Shown one piece after another: positions 45,427-54,778 of a DNA stretch of 64,000 bases. This DNA comes from Chitinophaga filiformis. GTDB taxonomy: Bacteria > Bacteroidota > Bacteroidia > Chitinophagales > Chitinophagaceae. The stretch is taken from assembly GCF_021646545.1 (NCBI RefSeq), contig NZ_JAKIRP010000011.1, forward strand, positions 124,001 through 188,000, read 5' to 3'. Below the pieces are notes generated by a model. It did not search any database and was not told where the DNA came from. It saw nothing but the letters and a program-made list of their open reading frames with translations. Position numbers and translations under genes: made by a program. Every line of letters starts with the position of its first letter. The first letter of the stretch is position 1.

Positions 45427-45825
45427 TTATTTCTTCAAGAGTTTATCCAGCGCATAACTATTGTATGTAACATACCCCAAAAGCAAAGCAAAAAATACCA
45501 CATGGATCAATTGAGAAACAAGCGCCTCCCAGCTCTCGATCAGCGTGGTACCCAATATCAAAAATATCATTACAATACTTCCGGCAATCAGTGACTGCCT
45601 GGTAAACAATCCGATAATCAGCAATAATCCTATCAGGAATTCTGCTACAGGAAGTGCATAACTGAAAGGCTTTACAAGAGAAGCTGGCAGCATGGAGTTT
45701 TCAAAGCTCTTAACCATCCAGCCACTGAACTTATCGAGTTTGGGTAATCTCACCAGCCCGTGTCCGAACATACTAACACCTATGGCCAGGCGCAGGATTA
45801 AAAAGCTGACTGTGTTGTTGATCAT
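45427..45825 (-). CDS. DoxX family membrane protein
   Basis: About 132 residues with four predicted membrane helices: FLILRLAIGVSMFGHGLVRLPKLDKFSGW at the start, then LPVAEFLIGLLLIIGLFTR, and two more. This matches DoxX-type proteins, whose role is uncertain (often linked to redox or sulfur metabolism). The frame runs to 45870, but the ATG at 45823-45825 (MINNTVSF) fits the family better. It is divergent from the retron operon, with 168 bases between starts. Confidence 0.82.
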   Translation of the reverse strand: MINNTVSFLILRLAIGVSMFGHGLVRLPKLDKFSGWMVKSFENSMLPASLVKPFSYALPVAEFLIGLLLIIGLFTRQSLIAGSIVMIFLILGTTLIESWEALVSQLIHVVFFALLLGYVTYNSYALDKLLKK

Positions 45826-45993
45826 TTGCGTGTATTTAACTGTTTGACGAGGCAAATTTCGGTCAGGCAATTATCATCCTGCCTGTACGATTGGAGGATA
45901 ATTCTGTACTTTTTCCGGAAAGCTAGAGAAAATTTATCCCATTCATATAAAAAATAATATTATTTTGGCTGCTGTGTTTAATGTTGTTAGCTC

Positions 45994-48900
45994 ATGCGAT
46001 TTATAAAGCAAACAAAGCTTTTCTTTAGAGAGGGGAATTCGGACAAGACCTATGAGATTGATTTATGTGAAGTTGGCCCCGGACAATATGTCGTAAACTT
46101 CCGCTATGGTAAGCGGGGTAGTGCATTAAAAGAAGGTAGCAAAACAGTGTCCCCGGTAGACCTGCCAACAGCCACCGCTATCTATGATGCGCTTGAAAAA
46201 GAAAAACGCTCCAAGGGATATTCTGCCGAACAGGATGCTGGTCCGGTAGCAGAATTTGTTTCTCCTGATACATCACAGGTGCAGAATCCTGCTCATGTGG
46301 CTATTTTGAAACGCCTGGAGTATGCGCTGAAAAGGCATTCAAAGTTCAAAACTGAATGGAAGACTTCCCGCGTTATCTGGAAGGCAGGTGAATACCGTAT
46401 CAGGGAAGCGGCCCCCATTATCGCGAAACTGATAGAACGGGAGGATGCTATGCAACGCTACTCCTCACTGTGGGCCCTGGGCCGTTGTGGAAGCGAGAAC
46501 GATATCCCGACGCTGAAAGCCTATGCGGAAAATAGTAGCTATCCTTACTACCTGCGCCAGATGGCCACTCATGCCATGTTACTCTTATTGGCTGAAGATG
46601 CTCGTAAGAGTTATATAGCGCAATTCGAAAAGGGACTGCCGCCGGAATTTCAGGAGGCGATAAGATCGGCTGGCAAACAAGCGCTGGGCAAGCTGCTGGA
46701 AGAACGGGTAAAAATACTGTCGCAGCCGTCCTATCCACTACTCGAAGAACTGTATATAGTAAGTATTGCAAATCCTCTTGTACGGGAAGTATTGTTGAAG
46801 TTCCTGGGTACATTACCCTTCAAAGTCAATTTCTTCCAGCATATCCGTCACCTGTTCAAACAAGCTGAAATCAGGGATGACCATGAGTTGATAGCCATGC
46901 TGGCTGAACGCTTTGAAAGGGAACAGCACAATGCAGGCGATGGCACTTACGCCAGCAAAAAAAGGCCATATCCTAAACATACCCGTTCTTATCTGCGCCG
47001 GCGTATACTGAGGCGATTGAAGCAGATGGGTAATCAGCATGATCTTAATTATGTCAGGTTTTCGACAGCCATATTACTGCAATACGATGCGGCCAAGCAT
47101 ACCGGTCCCCTTACGCAGCCATGGCGGAATGCCCCTTATGATAGTATCTACAGTCCTGCTACACACCATTTCCCGGCTAATGCAAAGGCGGTATTGCTCA
47201 ACTACATTTTGCAGGGCAATAATAAAAAGCTGGAACTGATAGCTGACGGTACTTTGTGGTATATTAAACAGGACCGTTCGGGTACATCCAGTCAGCAGTC
47301 CGGCCATCAGCCGAATAAAGGAGAAAGTCTGCTGAAAAAAGTGGCTGCTTTATTCCGCGGCAGCCGTAAGTCTACAGATATACAGCCCGGCATTTCAACT
47401 GAACAGGTGGTTAAGCCCGTCGACAGTGAAGTGCCTTTCCTGCACCTCTGGCAACAACTGCCACAGGCATTTATTCAGTTGCTGGTAAAAGGAAAGCTGG
47501 ATGAAATCCACGACTTTGCGCTGCATCAGCTGTTACAACATCCGGAATACGAGGCGCTGAAGGAAAAGATGGATAGTCACGTCATTCGTGCTTTACTGGC
47601 CAATCCTTTCCGCCTGCCACAGGAGTTCGGTCTGCAGCTGGCCAGAGAGAAATTCGATATCAATCATCCTTCCCTGCCCATTATACTGGCTTTATTGTAT
47701 AGCATTTCCGCCGAAGCGCGTGAACAGGCACTGGAATGGACGGCGGCAAGACCAGACCTTTGCCTGGCAGATGTCGACTTCCTCCGTGAGCTGATCTTCT
47801 GTCCGTATGAAGAGGTCCGTGCATTTGCAGGAGCGCAACTGGCGCAATACAAGCCTGCTGACGATAAAATCAGGCTGCTTACAGGTAAAGTAATTGCTTA
47901 TCTGCTTTCATTGAAAGAAGCAGACGAGCAGCTTAATGATACACTCACAGATGGTTGCCTCATTCTTGAGAAACATTTCAAAGATGCACTGATACAGCTG
48001 GATTTCAAAGTGATAGAAGACCTGTTACAGAGTGAATTGCCTGCAGCACAGGCACTGGCTGCCCGTTTGTTGTTCCTCAAGAAACAACAATTCAAACTTG
48101 ATCTGATCACAGACAGCCTGTTGCACCGTTTACTGGAACATCCTTATCAGCCGGTACGAACTGCTGGTATCGACGTCATATCTGCTATCGGTGATGCGGA
48201 ACTGGTGAAACGCCATGGGCTTTTATTCTTCTGTTGCAGTGCTTCTTATGCCGATGTGAGGAGCGCAGTGAGACCATTGCTGAAACGCCTTGCAGAACAG
48301 TACTCTGAACTGGCGGTATGGCTGGTGAATGAGCTGGTGCCCTTACTGATGCGAAAAGAAACATCTGAGGGACTACATGCAGATCTTGCCACATTGCTGA
48401 GCACTGAGCTGGTAGGACACTTACAGGATATCGATCAGGCAACCGCTTTACGTTTATTATATTCCAATTATCGCCCTGCCCAGGCTTTCGGTGTATTGGT
48501 GCTGGAGAAATATATCCCGGCAGAAAGTCTTACTATCAAGCAGGTTATCGCTGCCGGTAACCATGAATTGGAGGCCGTAAGACAATGGTGCCACCGGTTC
48601 TTCCAGCAACATGTTGCACGCATCCGGCAGGAAAGAGATTCGGCCGTGGCCTTGCTGGACGCTACCTGGGAAGATACGCGTGTTTTTGCCGAAGCATACT
48701 TCCGCACGCAGTTTGAGGCGGCAGATTGGTCGGCAGAATCGCTGGTGGCAATTGCCGATAGCGTGAACCCTACTGTACAAGCCTTCGGGCGCGAATTGCT
48801 TACCCGTTTCTTCCGGGAAGAGGATGGCGCCGTTTACCTGATGAAACTCAGTCAGCATCCCGGGGTAGCTATGCAGTTGTTCGCTACGAACTACCTGGAG

Positions 48901-49200
48901 AACTATGCAGCAGGTAACCTGCCCTATCTCATGGAACTCGAACATTATTTCAGATCTGTACTGTCGAGAGTGAACAAAGCCCGTGTAGCCAAAGAGAGGA
49001 TCTTTAACTTCCTTGAAAAAGAAGCGCTGCGATCACAGGAAGCCGCTACCTATATCGGAGGTATTATCACGGATATATCCGCTACCGTAGCTATCGGCGA
49101 TAAGGCCCGCTGTATTTCGCTCATGCGTAATATCCATCAGTCATATCCTGAGCTGTCCTTACCAGTACGATTTACCGATTTTCCCATGAAACAATCTTAA
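45994..49200 (+). CDS. Retron-associated WGR and HEAT/ARM-repeat protein
   Basis: 1068 residues. Residues 1-~75 form a WGR-type domain (TKLFFREGNSDKTYEIDL, then YVVNFRYGKRGSALKEG), a nucleic-acid-binding module known from PARPs and MolR. The WGR triplet is changed to YGKRG. The rest is an alpha-solenoid of HEAT/ARM repeats, for example REAAPIIAKLIEREDAMQRY near 134 and VRTAGIDVISAIGDAELV near 710. No enzymatic motif is visible. It is the first gene of a three-gene set: the SWIM protein starts 10 bases later and the retron RT follows. This matches the ARM component I recall for type XIII retrons. It probably acts as effector or scaffold with the msDNA; that is inference. Confidence 0.8.
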   Translation: MRFIKQTKLFFREGNSDKTYEIDLCEVGPGQYVVNFRYGKRGSALKEGSKTVSPVDLPTATAIYDALEKEKRSKGYSAEQDAGPVAEFVSPDTSQVQNPAHVAILKRLEYALKRHSKFKTEWKTSRVIWKAGEYRIREAAPIIAKLIEREDAMQRYSSLWALGRCGSENDIPTLKAYAENSSYPYYLRQMATHAMLLLLAEDARKSYIAQFEKGLPPEFQEAIRSAGKQALGKLLEERVKILSQPSYPLLEELYIVSIANPLVREVLLKFLGTLPFKVNFFQHIRHLFKQAEIRDDHELIAMLAERFEREQHNAGDGTYASKKRPYPKHTRSYLRRRILRRLKQMGNQHDLNYVRFSTAILLQYDAAKHTGPLTQPWRNAPYDSIYSPATHHFPANAKAVLLNYILQGNNKKLELIADGTLWYIKQDRSGTSSQQSGHQPNKGESLLKKVAALFRGSRKSTDIQPGISTEQVVKPVDSEVPFLHLWQQLPQAFIQLLVKGKLDEIHDFALHQLLQHPEYEALKEKMDSHVIRALLANPFRLPQEFGLQLAREKFDINHPSLPIILALLYSISAEAREQALEWTAARPDLCLADVDFLRELIFCPYEEVRAFAGAQLAQYKPADDKIRLLTGKVIAYLLSLKEADEQLNDTLTDGCLILEKHFKDALIQLDFKVIEDLLQSELPAAQALAARLLFLKKQQFKLDLITDSLLHRLLEHPYQPVRTAGIDVISAIGDAELVKRHGLLFFCCSASYADVRSAVRPLLKRLAEQYSELAVWLVNELVPLLMRKETSEGLHADLATLLSTELVGHLQDIDQATALRLLYSNYRPAQAFGVLVLEKYIPAESLTIKQVIAAGNHELEAVRQWCHRFFQQHVARIRQERDSAVALLDATWEDTRVFAEAYFRTQFEAADWSAESLVAIADSVNPTVQAFGRELLTRFFREEDGAVYLMKLSQHPGVAMQLFATNYLENYAAGNLPYLMELEHYFRSVLSRVNKARVAKERIFNFLEKEALRSQEAATYIGGIITDISATVAIGDKARCISLMRNIHQSYPELSLPVRFTDFPMKQS

Positions 49201-49210
49201 ACCCTGGAAG

Positions 49211-50869
49211 ATGTTATTTAACTATAGATATAGCGGACAAACCGAGGTTTACAGCAATGCAACATCAGCTGGAATATCATTTGCCCCTGATACACACCGG
49301 GAGCCGACCTTCTTCAACGGCAAACTGCGTAAAAAGATCGCCTTCCGGGAAGCAATTTCAGCTTTGCACGATGTCGTGGTATCTGACCTTCGTTTCAAAC
49401 CCAAAGACAAAACCGCCTATAAAGAATGGGCCGCTCAGCAGGAATCAGTCTGGCTTGCCGAGTACATGGGCCAGTACAATGCAGATGCCGCCAATGAGCG
49501 CATCAATGCCCTGAACCTGGAACTGCGCAGCATTTACAATGAGAAGGAAAAAGTAATGGCCCCTTTTTATAAAGCCCGTAAAGCCTATTTCGATTACCTG
49601 TACCAGAAAGACAGGGACGCATGGTTTGTGCTCGATCCTGTTATCAGCGTACACCCGGATGAGATATTCTTCGAATGTTTCAGCCAGGACGAATCTGCCT
49701 ACGGTAAACTAAGCGCCAGCTACAATGTGTTCAAAGAAGTGAACGAGTTCCAGTGTGGTACTACCAATATTGATTATTCTGCCGCATTATATAATGAATT
49801 TCAGAAGATCCGCGACTATAAGGAAACCACCTTTTCTGTCGATCCTGCCGGCTTCTCCGTGCAGACCACAAAGGAGGAGATGTTCCGTGAAGTGAAGATA
49901 GACCTGCCCGATAGCTGGGTACGCGGATTCCTGCAGGTAAGTTCCGCGATGACACTACCTGCTGCCAGCTTTGACCTGCACCCGATGGACGTCTACAACT
50001 TCTGTAGCTGGCTGCGGAGGTTCAAAGAGAAAAAAGGTCCGCGTTCCATCCGTTTTGTGCTGGACCCTGGCCAACCAGTGAAGGCAATATTCGAACCCTG
50101 GAATAAAGAGATCATCTGCGCACGTTCCATCTATACCGGTCCCCAACGCAGAGAGATCCGCATATGGGGCCGCAGGCGACTGCTCATCCTCGAACGCCTC
50201 ATCCCCGTTGCAAAGAAGTTTACCGTACATCTTACGGGCAGCGGTTTGCCGTCTTTCTATGTAGCCGATCTGGGCGACATGCAGTTTACACTGGGCCTCT
50301 CCGGATGGACAGCCAACGACTGGTCACGTGCCGGGCAGTTTGATCTGATGGCGCCAAGAGCCGCGGTGGAAGATGCAACGAAGCTTCGCGTGTTCAGTGA
50401 GTTACAACAGATGTGGATGGGAAAACCAGAGGAGATCTCCGCAAGAACAGGTGTATCTGTTCCTGAAGTACTGGCTACATTAGGTATCTATACACAGGCA
50501 GGTAAAGTGATCTACGACCTGCATACAGGCTATTACCGTTTGCGTGAGCTAAGCAGGGACCCTTTGCCACTGGACCAGTTAAGGTTCTCTAATCCTAAAG
50601 AAGAATCAGCTACGCGACTGATAAAGGAAGGTAAGATCTCCATGTCAGTACAACACGTGCCGTCGGTAGGATTACAGGTTGAGGGACAGATCACTGCAGA
50701 GCGGCGTACATACCGCCCGGTTATTGTAATCGATAACGATGAGCGTATGAGCACAGGGCATTGTGATTGTTATGACTACATCACGAACAAGCTCTATAAA
50801 GGCCCTTGCGAACATATGCTGGCACTGCGTATGGCATATGAAAAGAATAAGACTAACAATAACGCATAA
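49211..50869 (+). CDS. Retron-associated winged-helix/SWIM zinc-finger protein (WHSWIM)
   Basis: 552 residues. The C-terminus holds a SWIM zinc finger (Cys 518, Cys 520, Cys 533, His 535; GHCDCYDYI and GPCEHML), a DNA- or protein-binding module. Upstream, residues ~390-447 look like a winged helix (KLRVFSELQQMWMGKPEEIS, then VPEVLATLGIYTQAGKVIYD). The large N-terminal part is unassigned. The gene is coupled to the WGR-HEAT gene (10-base gap) and followed by the retron RNA. The WH-plus-SWIM layout corresponds to the WHSWIM partner of type XIII retrons. Confidence 0.8.
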   Translation: MLFNYRYSGQTEVYSNATSAGISFAPDTHREPTFFNGKLRKKIAFREAISALHDVVVSDLRFKPKDKTAYKEWAAQQESVWLAEYMGQYNADAANERINALNLELRSIYNEKEKVMAPFYKARKAYFDYLYQKDRDAWFVLDPVISVHPDEIFFECFSQDESAYGKLSASYNVFKEVNEFQCGTTNIDYSAALYNEFQKIRDYKETTFSVDPAGFSVQTTKEEMFREVKIDLPDSWVRGFLQVSSAMTLPAASFDLHPMDVYNFCSWLRRFKEKKGPRSIRFVLDPGQPVKAIFEPWNKEIICARSIYTGPQRREIRIWGRRRLLILERLIPVAKKFTVHLTGSGLPSFYVADLGDMQFTLGLSGWTANDWSRAGQFDLMAPRAAVEDATKLRVFSELQQMWMGKPEEISARTGVSVPEVLATLGIYTQAGKVIYDLHTGYYRLRELSRDPLPLDQLRFSNPKEESATRLIKEGKISMSVQHVPSVGLQVEGQITAERRTYRPVIVIDNDERMSTGHCDCYDYITNKLYKGPCEHMLALRMAYEKNKTNNNA

Positions 50870-50926
50870 GCAGAAAAAGAAGATGAGGAGATAAAAAAGA
50901 AATGAAAGAAAAAAATGCAATATGTA

Positions 50927-50957
50927 TTTGTACTTTCAATAATTGTCTCTATCTTTC
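50927..50957 (+). promoter_or_regulatory. Candidate promoter of the retron RNA
   Basis: TTTG (50927-50930), then 19 bases, then TATCTTTC (50950-50957). This matches the Bacteroidota consensus TTTG-N19-21-TAnnTTTG with one mismatch. A start about 7 bases downstream (~50964) would place the a1 arm at the 5' end of the RNA. Confidence 0.6.
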
Positions 50958-50975
50958 GCATCAGAAAAAGATCTT

Positions 50976-51208
50976 TGTAAAGAGGAAATGATTGCACTTG
51001 CGCCTGGTTTCAGGAAGAGTGATGTTTCGTCACTCAGGTAACATGACATTTTCATGCTTCACTAAATGCAATCTTTACTTTGGGAGGGGCGTACCTACTA
51101 GTATTTTACGGTACAAGCCCCGGGGGCTCAAAATACCAGTAGGTACGCCCCTCCCTGGAGTTGATTGATTTAGTCAATGGCTTGCACGAAGGCCGTTTCC
51201 TCTTTACA
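50976..51208 (+). ncRNA. Retron msr-msd RNA
   Basis: The ends are complementary: TGTAAAGAGGAAA (50976-50988, a1) and TTTCCTCTTTACA (51196-51208, a2), 13 bp perfect, extendable by a G-U and a G-C pair. Just inside a1 lie short msr hairpins: CCTG-GTTT-CAGG (51003-51014), GAGTGA-TGTTTCG-TCACTC (51017-51035) and CATGA-CATTT-TCATG (51042-51056), the first two with UUU in the loop. Next comes the long msd hairpin (51082-51155). A G just 3' of a1 (50990 or 50994) would be the 2'-5' branch base. It lies directly upstream of the RT gene, the standard retron arrangement. Confidence 0.88.
51082..51155. repeat. Long msd inverted repeat
   Basis: The 26-base arms (51082-51107 and 51130-51155, GGGAGGGGCGTACC... 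against ...GGTACGCCCCTCCC) differ at one position. The 22-base spacer has its own small palindrome, AGCCCCGGGGGCT. Reverse transcription would give a long hairpin single-stranded DNA. Confidence 0.9.
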
Positions 51209-51303
51209 TTATTTTTCTGTTGACCCTTATCTCCCCTTTTTTTCTTTTCCGCTTTTTACTTGAACGAACTTTCTTTTATCAGCAATAAACCGTCTGAAAG
51301 ATT

Positions 51304-52809
51304 ATGGCAGAAGGATTGACGCGTCAGCAACTATATGACCGTATCAGAGCATCTACCAAAGATGAAGTCATCCTGGAAGAAATGACCCGCCTGGGTTTCT
51401 GGCAAAAAAATACCATTAAGCCCTCCCCTTCGGAAGCCCTGATCCACAGGGAAGCCGACTTACACCGAGAACTGAATAAGTTACTGGAAGAGAAGCGCCG
51501 CTACCAGAACCGGGAGAAAATGCTGCTTGAAATGCGTAAGCAGCGCATGGCAGCAGCGAAGGCTAAAAGAGCAGCGACAAAACTGCGCAATGAAGAAAAG
51601 CGTAAGGAGAAAGCTGCTCTATGGGCTGAACAGAAAGAAAAAAACATCGTCTACCTGGGCGAAGATGTATCCCAGGGCCTGAATAAGACTGTTTCCGATA
51701 CCGAACGTCTCACGGCAGCAGGCCTGCCTGTCTTTCATGATGGCGTTGCACTGGCAGCCGCTATGGGTATCAGCATCGGCAAACTACGCTTCCTGGCCTT
51801 TAACAGGAAGGTGGGACATATCACACACTATAAGCGGTTCTATATACCTAAAAAGTCTGGCGGCAAACGCCTGATCTCCGCTCCCATGCCACAGCTGAAG
51901 GCTACACAGTACTGGATACTGGAAAACATCCTGTATAAGGTACCTAACAGTAATGCAGCGCATGGCTTTGTGCCGGGAAGGTCCATCGTTACCAATGCGG
52001 CGCATCACGTAGCACAGGATATTGTGATTAATATCGACCTGCGCGACTTCTTCCCCACTATTGAATACAAGCGGGTGAAAGGCATGTTCTGCAAACTGGG
52101 TTACAGTGAACAGGTAGCTACCATTCTGGCACTGTTGTGTACAGAACCGGAGGTTGACCAGGTAGCGCTCGATGGAAAGGACTATTATGTGGCCAATACT
52201 AATCGCCATCTGCCGCAGGGCGCCCCTTGCAGCCCGGCTATTACGAATATTATCTGCTTCCGTCTCGACCGTCGTTTTGAAGGTCTGGCCCGCAGGTTCA
52301 GTTATACTTATACCCGCTACGCAGATGACATGACCTTCTCTGCCAGAGAAACCGCTGCAGATGATGCAGGCAAGCTGATTTGGGGCGTAAAACAGGTGGT
52401 GAAGGAAGAAGGCTTCGTAATCCATCCTGATAAGTTAAAAGTGATGCGGAAGGGCGATAAAAGAGAAGTAACCGGTATTGTGGTGAATGATAAGTTGAGC
52501 CTGGACAGGGAAACATTGCGTAAGTTCAGGGCCCTGCTGCACCAGATATCCGTATCCGGATTAGCGGGTAAACAATGGGGCAAGGGCAATATTGTCAGCA
52601 GCGTGGAAGGTTATATCAACTATGTATTGATGGTGAAACCTGAAGCCGGTAAGCAACTGAAAGATAAGTGGCGCCTATTGCTGAACCGGGATGATATCAA
52701 GGCGCAGGCACGTACAGCTGCGACACAACCTATCGTACCACCCACACCACCCTCAGGTAAAGAGAATAATAGCAATGAAGGCGATAAACCCTGGTGGGAT
52801 ATTGTATAA
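51304..52809 (+). CDS. Retron reverse transcriptase
   Basis: 501 residues. A charged, probably coiled-coil N-terminus (about 50-115, rich in Lys/Arg/Glu/Ala) precedes the RT. Motifs are KSGGKRLISAP (motif 1, ~185-194), NAAHH (231-235, the retron-specific NAxxH), motif A INIDLRDFFPTIEY (D245), LPQGAPCSP (303-311), the catalytic YADD (339-342) and VTG (389-391, retron-specific). It should prime from the branch G of the msr RNA encoded just upstream and make msDNA. The extended N-terminus and Pro-rich tail are unusual beside short retron RTs such as Ec86. A strong terminator follows. Confidence 0.95.
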   Translation: MAEGLTRQQLYDRIRASTKDEVILEEMTRLGFWQKNTIKPSPSEALIHREADLHRELNKLLEEKRRYQNREKMLLEMRKQRMAAAKAKRAATKLRNEEKRKEKAALWAEQKEKNIVYLGEDVSQGLNKTVSDTERLTAAGLPVFHDGVALAAAMGISIGKLRFLAFNRKVGHITHYKRFYIPKKSGGKRLISAPMPQLKATQYWILENILYKVPNSNAAHGFVPGRSIVTNAAHHVAQDIVINIDLRDFFPTIEYKRVKGMFCKLGYSEQVATILALLCTEPEVDQVALDGKDYYVANTNRHLPQGAPCSPAITNIICFRLDRRFEGLARRFSYTYTRYADDMTFSARETAADDAGKLIWGVKQVVKEEGFVIHPDKLKVMRKGDKREVTGIVVNDKLSLDRETLRKFRALLHQISVSGLAGKQWGKGNIVSSVEGYINYVLMVKPEAGKQLKDKWRLLLNRDDIKAQARTAATQPIVPPTPPSGKENNSNEGDKPWWDIV

Positions 52810-53031
52810 CAAGTAATAATAGTTATAGGCGTCAGTCAACCTGCCTGCAGCGTCGCCCTTGTGTTTTTAGCGCCGGGTACAACCACGGATAGCAAAGATC
52901 AATGAACGTCCTTCAGAAGATTACCTGATTACGCCGGTATCCAAATGGAAAGAGCCCATATCTCATTTTGATATGGGCTCTTTTTTATAAATAGAGGATT
53001 AGTAAATCTCTGATGATAAAATTAAGCATTT
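52810..53031. other. Post-retron spacer with degenerate dispersed repeat
   Basis: About 52840-52893 contains GTGTTTTTAGCGCCGGGTAC, a decayed copy of the dispersed repeat core. The terminator below follows. No gene. Confidence 0.55.
52949..52988 (+). terminator. Intrinsic terminator of the retron operon
   Basis: A perfect 14-bp stem AAAGAGCCCATATC / GATATGGGCTCTTT (52949-52962 / 52970-52983) is followed by a T tract. It ends the RT transcript 140 bases after its stop, and may also serve the convergent lipoprotein gene. Confidence 0.88.
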
Positions 53032-53394
53032 TTATTGATTAAATGGATGCATATCTATCACCGTATCATTTCTATAGTAAGTGCCTAGTTGACGCTGGCC
53101 TTTTTCATTATAGGTGATAGTTGGTCCATCTTTCTTATCACGCTTATAAAATTGCACCGCGGCTACCTGCCGGTTGTAGTTAAAGACCTTTACATAGGAA
53201 AGCGCTGTATCTTTCTTATGCGTATAGACTTCCGTCTTCAGATAAACTCCTCCCTGTCCCTGTAAGGTCTCTGTGAGTCTATAGTCTGCCGTATCTGCCA
53301 GTGCATATGGATCGTTGGTAATGGGGCCTGCAGACTGCCTGCATGCATAACAGCTGAATAAAGCTGTAATGGTAACGGATAAGTAGTATTTCAT
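53032..53394 (-). CDS. Small lipoprotein with MORN-like tail
   Basis: 120 residues. A short export signal ends in SCYACRQS, where Cys 18 is the likely lipidation site. The C-terminal part has a MORN/YwqK-like repeat (DKKDGPTITYNEKGQRQLGTYY). Nothing else is recognisable. It converges on the retron terminator and is divergent from the P450 gene. Confidence 0.6.
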   Translation of the reverse strand: MKYYLSVTITALFSCYACRQSAGPITNDPYALADTADYRLTETLQGQGGVYLKTEVYTHKKDTALSYVKVFNYNRQVAAVQFYKRDKKDGPTITYNEKGQRQLGTYYRNDTVIDMHPFNQ

Positions 53395-53614: not shown

Positions 53615-54778
53615 ATGACTCCATCTACCTTAACATCCCCTTTAACCTGGCATCAGCAGATGCGGGAAGAACAACCAGTTTATTTTGATCCGGCATTCAG
53701 GTTTTATTTTGGCGGGCAGGGAGCCTGGCAGGTATTCCACCACAAAGATGTGCAAAGAGTGCTGAGTGACTATGAAGTTTTTTCAAATGAGTACATGCCC
53801 AAGTCTGATGATAATTTGCTTGGCAGCAATCTGAACCAGACCGACCCTCCGCGTCACCGTCAGTTGCGCGCACTGGTAACAAAGGCATTCTCTCCATCTA
53901 TCGTCTCCAAAATGGAAAGCTGGATCCGGCAGGAATGTAACGAGCTGTTGGAGCCACACCTGCAAAAAGGAGAAATGGATTTCGTGAAAGCATTCTCTAT
54001 TCCTCTTCCCGGCAGGGTCACCGCACAGCTATTAGGTGTACCTGATCAGGACCATGACCAGGTAAATGCCTGGATCAATGCCATCTCAAGTGATCCCGCT
54101 GTAATAGGCATGGATGCTTATTTCCAGGCCCAGCAGGAAATGGGTAAGCTGTTTATGACCTTACTGGAAGAAAGGTCTAAAGAACCACGTGCTGATCTGA
54201 TATCTCACCTGTTACAGGCTGAAATAGATGGCGAAAGACTTAGTATACCAGACACGCTTGCCTTTTGTATTGCCTTGCTGATAGCAGGCAATGAAACGAC
54301 CAATGGCTTCCTGGCCAATGCTATGTATACATTCGCAACCCTACCTGCCGTGCAATCGCATCTGACGACCAACATACAGGACCTCCCCGCTGCTTTAAAC
54401 GAAGTACTGCGCTATGAGCCCCCGGTTCAGAGTATGTGCCGCATCGCAAAGATGGATGTGGAGCTGGGCGGACAACTCATCAAAAAAGGAGATCTGATGA
54501 ACGTATGGCTGACGGCAGCCAATCGCGATCCTGCAGTATTTGCCGATCCCGATACTTTTAATATCAACAGGGATAATATCAAAATGGTGAGCTTTGGACA
54601 TGGTCCGCATTATTGTATAGGCGCCATGCTGGCAAAAATGGAGGCGAAAATCGCTTTCGAGATCATCCTTGAAAAGATGAAAAACATACAACTCAAGCCG
54701 GGAGTGACGCCAGAAAGGAATCCAAGTACGATAGTGGCCGGATTCCTGGACTTACCTATTGTATTTGAACAAAAATAA
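53615..54778 (+). CDS. Cytochrome P450
   Basis: 387 residues, soluble bacterial class. The heme-ligand loop FGHGPHYCIGAMLAKME places the Cys thiolate at residue 334. The I-helix reads LLIAGNETTNGF (~226-237, acid-Thr pair present), the K-helix ExxR is in ALNEVLRYEPPVQ (~265-275) and the C-helix contains DPPRHRQLR. It hydroxylates a small hydrophobic molecule using a ferredoxin/reductase from elsewhere. A terpene synthase gene lies 2 kb downstream on the opposite strand, so a terpene is a plausible substrate, by inference. Confidence 0.94.
   Translation: MTPSTLTSPLTWHQQMREEQPVYFDPAFRFYFGGQGAWQVFHHKDVQRVLSDYEVFSNEYMPKSDDNLLGSNLNQTDPPRHRQLRALVTKAFSPSIVSKMESWIRQECNELLEPHLQKGEMDFVKAFSIPLPGRVTAQLLGVPDQDHDQVNAWINAISSDPAVIGMDAYFQAQQEMGKLFMTLLEERSKEPRADLISHLLQAEIDGERLSIPDTLAFCIALLIAGNETTNGFLANAMYTFATLPAVQSHLTTNIQDLPAALNEVLRYEPPVQSMCRIAKMDVELGGQLIKKGDLMNVWLTAANRDPAVFADPDTFNINRDNIKMVSFGHGPHYCIGAMLAKMEAKIAFEIILEKMKNIQLKPGVTPERNPSTIVAGFLDLPIVFEQK

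Follow-up and report, generated by a model that had tools for sequence, protein, structure and literature searches.

A type XIII retron of Chitinophaga filiformis with a predicted clamp-like partner protein and msd-like fragments in related chromosomes

We analysed a 64,000-nucleotide (nt) stretch of Chitinophaga filiformis DNA, hereafter the window (assembly GCF_021646545.1, contig NZ_JAKIRP010000011.1, positions 124,001–188,000 of the forward strand), which contains a three-gene retron. The genes, all on the plus strand, encode a WGR-HEAT protein, a SWIM protein whose start lies 10 bases past the WGR-HEAT stop codon, and a reverse transcriptase (RT), and the 434-nt gap between the SWIM and RT genes (50870–51303) contains a structured RNA locus (Table 1). 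The RT translation contains NAAHH, YADD and VTG, in line with the NAxxH, YADD and VTG motifs of retron RTs, and most other RT models match it only beyond an N-terminal part of ~145 amino acids (aa). The original prediction, made from the bare sequence, had described a 1068-aa WGR/alpha-solenoid protein, a 552-aa winged-helix/SWIM protein, an RNA locus and an RT with these motifs, and had read them as a type XIII retron; open reading frames (ORFs), PADLOC and tests of the noncoding RNA (ncRNA) bear out the description, and the PADLOC comparison bears out the type.

Table 1. Features of the retron locus and its flanks, in window coordinates.
Feature	Position	Strand	Evidence
WGR-HEAT partner, 1068 aa: N-terminal WGR-like domain and long alpha-solenoid	45994–49200	+	ORF, PADLOC, Pfam, AlphaFold2 model
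SWIM partner, 552 aa: predicted PCNA-like clamp fold, winged helix and SWIM zinc finger	49211–50869	+	ORF, PADLOC, AlphaFold2 model
Predicted PCNA-like clamp region, residues 34–371, helical insertion at ~69–140	49310–50323	+	
Winged-helix-like segment, residues ~388–444	50372–50542	+	model secondary structure; weak DprA_WH matches
SWIM zinc finger, residues 507–539	50729–50827	+	invariant C518, C520, C533 and H535 in 45 sequences
Retron ncRNA (msr-msd), a1 and a2 repeats included	50976–51208	+	fold energy, inverted repeat, covariation
a1 repeat, 13 nt	50976–50988	+	inverted-repeat search; conserved in 28-locus alignment
a2 repeat, reverse complement of a1	51196–51208	+	
Inferred msd template, ~132 nt	51056–51187	+	ends inferred from stray genomic copies
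Upper msd hairpin, variable sequence with kept pairing	51084–51153	+	helices 8 and 9 of consensus fold
Retron RT, 501 aa	51304–52809	+	ORF; RT_XIII over residues 4–490; Pfam RVT_1 181–393
DoxX flank	45427–45870	−	Pfam
120-aa flanking ORF without Pfam match	53032–53394	−	
Flanking ORF	53615–54778	+	ORF call

Gene content and protein profiles identify the locus as a type XIII retron, a kind already known, since all three proteins match the PADLOC type XIII models over nearly their full length. Specifically, the RT scores highest with RT_XIII (633.5 bits, against 327.5 bits for the runner-up), which places the RT in the type XIII clade by profile score alone; SWIM_XIII matches the 552-aa protein with 799.1 bits, and WGR_XIII matches the 1068-aa protein with 1158.3 bits over residues 1–1064, HEAT-ARM_XIII being weaker. 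In the naming of type XIII retrons, this gene set is ARM plus WHSWIM. The RT is regularly accompanied by the WGR-HEAT solenoid and the SWIM partner: around the best 80 of 470 stretches with RT relatives, kept from a scan of a species-genome collection, tblastn finds WGR-HEAT at 75, SWIM at 75 and both at 74. Four loci (L046, L047, L059 and L071) sit close to contig ends, and one (L091) has WGR-HEAT with no SWIM match.

The retron ncRNA is real and has inverted a1/a2 repeats beside the RT. The fold energy of 50900–51303 gives a z score of −8.35 against 100 shuffles, and a1 and a2 form a 13-nt inverted repeat with starts 220 nt apart. Repeats of 10–14 nt with starts 218–225 nt apart are found in 27 further Chitinophaga-type loci (L017–L039, L041, L043, L045 and L060, including L020 and L037 from metagenome-assembled genomes), and a number of more distant loci, not all, have repeats of 8–16 nt ~204–226 nt apart. 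In the consensus fold of 28 aligned loci, which has 72 pairs, 99.1% of cells pair, and 19 pairs show two-sided change (11.9 in shuffles, 0/500 as high), amounting to 138 cells (41.5 in shuffles). Sliding the partner by 1–3 columns gives at most 19 cells and 6 pairs, while a weaker measure, the number of further pair types, gives 33 versus 30.2 and is equalled by 61/500 shuffles. Two-sided changes affect 15 of the 28 pairs of the upper msd stem (helix 8), and the lower stem (helix 7) has no varying pairs; the msd duplex is kept while its upper-stem sequence drifts.

On the loop side of the upper msd hairpin, part of the 3′ arm is repeated (GGTAC.AGCCCC), and the 5′ arm could pair with either copy; judged by eye from the alignment, the loop copy co-varies with the arm in several relatives and not in others. 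Four Rfam matches in the ncRNA region fall far below their gathering scores (the best, STnc400 on the minus strand, has E 0.00049 and 30.8 bits versus 80) and were taken as chance hairpin matches.

A search of the own genome with 50600–52900 returned two unexpected matches beyond the locus and its own hairpin. We searched the genus with the whole ncRNA (246 nt) in 60 genomes and with the ncRNA of a C. eiseniae locus (L025, 236 nt) in all 79; as these are two msd variants, the first used in 60/79 genomes only, coverage is poorer for genomes with other variants. A full ncRNA is present in 44 of the 79 genomes. Leaving out full copies and matches of retron hairpins to their own opposite strand, 24 fragments that reach E 0.01 lie in eight genomes, seven among the 44 with the ncRNA and one (G263) among the 35 without it, where the fragment and the printed 25-nt flanks on either side are identical to those of G208. 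Collapsing orthologues (L140 and a site in G255 with L129, L214 with L143) leaves 21 distinct loci. None of these lies wholly in msr, and 19 lie within 51050–51190, against 9.6 for random placement (P 1.5e-5). On the a2 side, 10 of the 21 stop at 51183–51189, where random placement gives 0.76 and placement confined to msd gives 1.8, with 0/200,000 trials reaching the count in each case. Three loci (L127, by its ungapped part, L129 and L134) stop near 51053–51056 on the other side. From these ends we infer the ends of the multicopy single-stranded DNA (msDNA) and its length of ~132 nt. Three weaker matches (L144, L145 and L146, E 0.02 to 0.3) were aligned and excluded from all counts.

Both end-count intervals were picked after seeing the data, and a second genus serves as an independent check. 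We compared the ncRNA region of G071 (L008:1130–1520) with nine retron-bearing genomes of the family, its own included, of which eight matched. Beyond ncRNA copies and hairpin mirrors, seven sites were found at E 0.01, six of them in the msd, in G071 and G150. Four of the six stop at index 316–322, corresponding to 51182–51188 of the window, and three of these at 51186–51188; the sites played no part in choosing the boundary.

The insertion at L141 (G222) consists of a 37-nt msd piece, 36/37 identical to the msd of the same genome, and ~11 nt of filler. The flanks are continuous without the insert in five sister genomes (G234, G236, G235, G205 and G231) and further apart, and thus uninformative, in three (G246, G251 and G245). 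No clear target duplication is seen at L141, which fits capture at a break over transposition. At L129 the alignment is continuous in G256, G248 and G255, and partial in G000, indicating that this insertion is old. No informative empty site was found for L127. In the own genome, L130 was tried as an empty site and set aside: its fragment is absent from 6/6 aligned sisters, but the intergenic stretch is rearranged, with three sisters lacking ~240 nt.

In a number of sister genomes the flanks of L209 (G255) and L129 (G220) are not found together, as if at repaired breaks; for L209, they are together in none of 11 sister genomes among the matches listed. At L211 (~474–837, G255) there is a tandem array whose units carry a short msd-like piece, with one element multicopy in G255, G248 and G220.

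The AlphaFold2 model of the SWIM partner, with a predicted local distance difference test score (pLDDT) of 75.4 and a predicted template modelling score (pTM) of 0.70, shows, as a prediction only, the two-domain fold of a PCNA-like clamp protomer, after which come a winged helix and a SWIM finger. The model aligns with archaeal PCNA subunits (3aix, 2izo) and human PCNA (1axc) over 232–234 residues at 2.8–2.9 Å, with ~10% identity. Pfam, at E up to 10, finds the SWIM domain in 43 of 45 relatives (best 6.4e-8), and its four zinc-finger residues listed in Table 1 are invariant; DprA_WH matches are weak, occurring in 8/45 members with a best E of 0.011. The WGR-HEAT partner matches HEAT_2 in Pfam, with WGR at 21.9 bits, just below the 22-bit cut-off. 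Its AlphaFold2 model (pLDDT 85, pTM 0.63) has 50 listed Foldseek matches, all of them general HEAT-type proteins such as CAND1, the PP2A scaffold, Scc2 and Pds5B.

In genome G013, a homologue of the SWIM partner adjoins a large DUF6493/DUF7824/DUF7825 protein (L271, 1899–6312). The clamp and SWIM regions of the two SWIM proteins are homologous (hhalign 99.2%, E 7.8e-20), profile comparison finds no relationship between the large partner and WGR-HEAT, and G013 has no RT_XIII match at 1e-100.

The most likely reading is a tripartite guard in which the clamp-like partner holds the msDNA duplex. We give a probability of roughly 0.6 to a type XIII retron with a ~132-nt msDNA, a clamp-like partner holding its duplex, and msDNA pieces captured in chromosomes. 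According to this model, the RT would copy the msd from 51187 back to ~51056 into a minus-strand msDNA that folds as a long hairpin; the clamp-like partner, or an oligomer thereof, would grip the msDNA duplex regardless of sequence, while the WGR-HEAT solenoid would scaffold the complex. If a phage interfered with the msDNA or with the replication apparatus, the clamp-SWIM/WGR-HEAT pair would be released and could act on DNA or the replisome, halting the infected cell. As a by-product, pieces of msDNA would be captured into chromosomes, apparently at DNA breaks. The clamp-holds-duplex step is suggested because of the predicted fold and the drift of the msd stem with its pairing kept. In the original prediction, the msDNA/RT complex would hold the two partner proteins in check, with the WGR module as a possible msDNA sensor; it mentioned neither a PCNA-like fold of the SWIM partner nor msd fragments at other genomic sites.

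Several observations weigh against this model and favour other accounts. For the fragments, the gapped alignment of L127 extends to 51035, L133 (G222), alone among the fragments, aligns clearly beyond the common boundary, as far as 51201, and the second-genus site in G157 (E 0.003), probably a chance match, lies outside the msd and matches a stretch upstream of a1. An alignment such as that of L133 would be expected if the fragments were decayed remnants of duplicated retrons or of whole ncRNA copies, not captured cDNA, and many fragments are ~77–90% alike to the present msd, which makes them old. This origin appears improbable to us, given the absence of wholly msr fragments, the concentration of 19/21 loci in the msd interval, the coincidence of ends in two genera and, at L141, the bare 37-nt piece with filler where five sisters have an undisturbed site. 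It would also be conceivable that the msd hairpin is a mobile palindrome, similar to repetitive extragenic palindromes or miniature inverted-repeat transposable elements, moved by a transposase and lying within the retron incidentally. The msd is indeed a long palindrome, 18 of the 21 loci overlap no ORF of at least 120 aa, and the fragment at L211, a complicated case retained among the 21, joins the end of the tandem repeat array. The fragments do not share both ends, most cover one side of the hairpin only, no clear target duplication is seen at L141, and the sequence of the abundant repeat near L211 is another one, all of which make such an element very improbable.

For the clamp, the fold model rests on 45 sequences at a pLDDT of 75, no clamp is among the 15 PDB sequences matched at E ≤10 in a sequence-profile search, and none is among the best 25 of 38 Pfam families for the 45 members. 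In addition, one RT relative (L085) lacks both partners in the tblastn search despite 8 kb on each side, and the homologue in G013 implies that the clamp fold need not have evolved for msDNA binding. The locus could instead be a type XIII retron of the ordinary sort, its SWIM protein simply a DNA-binding regulator that shares the clamp fold without clamp function, and WGR-HEAT its toxic effector. The full match to known type XIII models is in agreement with this account, sharing a fold says nothing of function, both SWIM and winged-helix domains belong to DNA-binding types, and the SWIM homologue outside retrons stands beside an unrelated partner. We consider it somewhat unlikely, as the clamp region is strongly conserved among 45 relatives that span several phyla (columns of the whole protein average 68% identity), which suggests a specific job. 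Going beyond the guard with a clamp-like partner, type XIII retrons might carry their own PCNA-like clamp that encircles the long msDNA hairpin, with its drifting sequence and kept pairing, and shifts to replicating DNA on phage attack; capture of msDNA at chromosome breaks would, over evolutionary time, make the retron a source of retroposed DNA at a low rate, with fossils that mark both ends of the cDNA. We regard this bolder version as tentative and rather doubtful.

The original prediction had also seen an inserted cassette between DoxX and a lipoprotein/P450, the names 'lipoprotein' and 'P450' being those of that first reading. A recent insertion is not supported: nine sister loci (L017–L023, L039 and L041) share the neighbourhood, with DUF386 in 9/9, the 120-aa gene in 9/9, DoxX in 6/9 and the P450 ORF in 7/9, and none of the four has a match in the stretches around the other 71 of the 80 loci, indicating an old position in this clade and a different one elsewhere. 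Among 195 genomes of the family, 12 have RT_XIII at 1e-100; SWIM_XIII at 1e-10 is found in these and also in G013, there as the distant homologue. No SWIM match at 1e-10 was found in 50,697 phage records, and the plasmid records contained one RT relative at 1e-80, in a Methylobacterium bullatum record of 2.8 Mb. The three-gene set also occurs in Phytobacter (Enterobacteriaceae) records L076 and L081. In six Flavobacterium loci (L048, L052, L055, L062, L063 and L077) the RT comes first with the partners downstream; in Calothrix/Dulcicalothrix (L093, L094 and L096) the SWIM-RT spacing is 2.0–2.6 kb, leaving room for another element; and L085 is a Planctomycetaceae RT relative with 46% identity.

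Compared with known type XIII retrons, all three proteins, the gene set and the ncRNA upstream of the RT are alike, and no difference in gene content is seen. We found no description of a clamp fold or of msd fragments for type XIII retrons in the literature searched, no paper titled for a type XIII mechanism or a retron clamp in a search with most subscription journals outside its scope, and no account of the type XIII mechanism in the literature searched, the accessible part of PMC12548924 included. If true, our model would open two little-understood sides of retrons to testing, the clamp-like partner and the msd pieces scattered in related chromosomes.

The SWIM partner resembles PCNA and beta clamps in the predicted two-domain protomer fold, and differs from them in its low identity, its helical insertion and its fused winged helix and SWIM domain. 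In the RT-free pair of G013 the SWIM gene adjoins a large partner gene as in the retron, whereas the retron has RT_XIII and a large partner of another family by profile. Partial chromosomal msDNA-like copies are known from Nannocystis exedens and were read as retrotransposed DNA (Lampson & Rice 1997; Lampson et al. 2002, as cited in the accessible part of PMC6868368). In contrast to those repeats, as far as that source describes them, the fragments reported here are numerous, occur in several species and also in a second genus, have a common boundary and an empty site, and concern a type XIII retron. With them, the older proposal from one myxobacterium, that retron cDNA can enter the chromosome, can be put to a count in many genomes, and the positions of the msDNA ends are predicted with an error of a few bases ahead of any experiment. 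A clamp-like partner would tie type XIII retrons to replication and leads to a concrete hypothesis, namely that the clamp mimics a particular phage or host factor or competes with it. The nearest published replication sensing that we found, relative to the proposed clamp-based type XIII guard, is that of retron Eco8, whose msDNA senses phage SSB (PMC13158370, accessible part).
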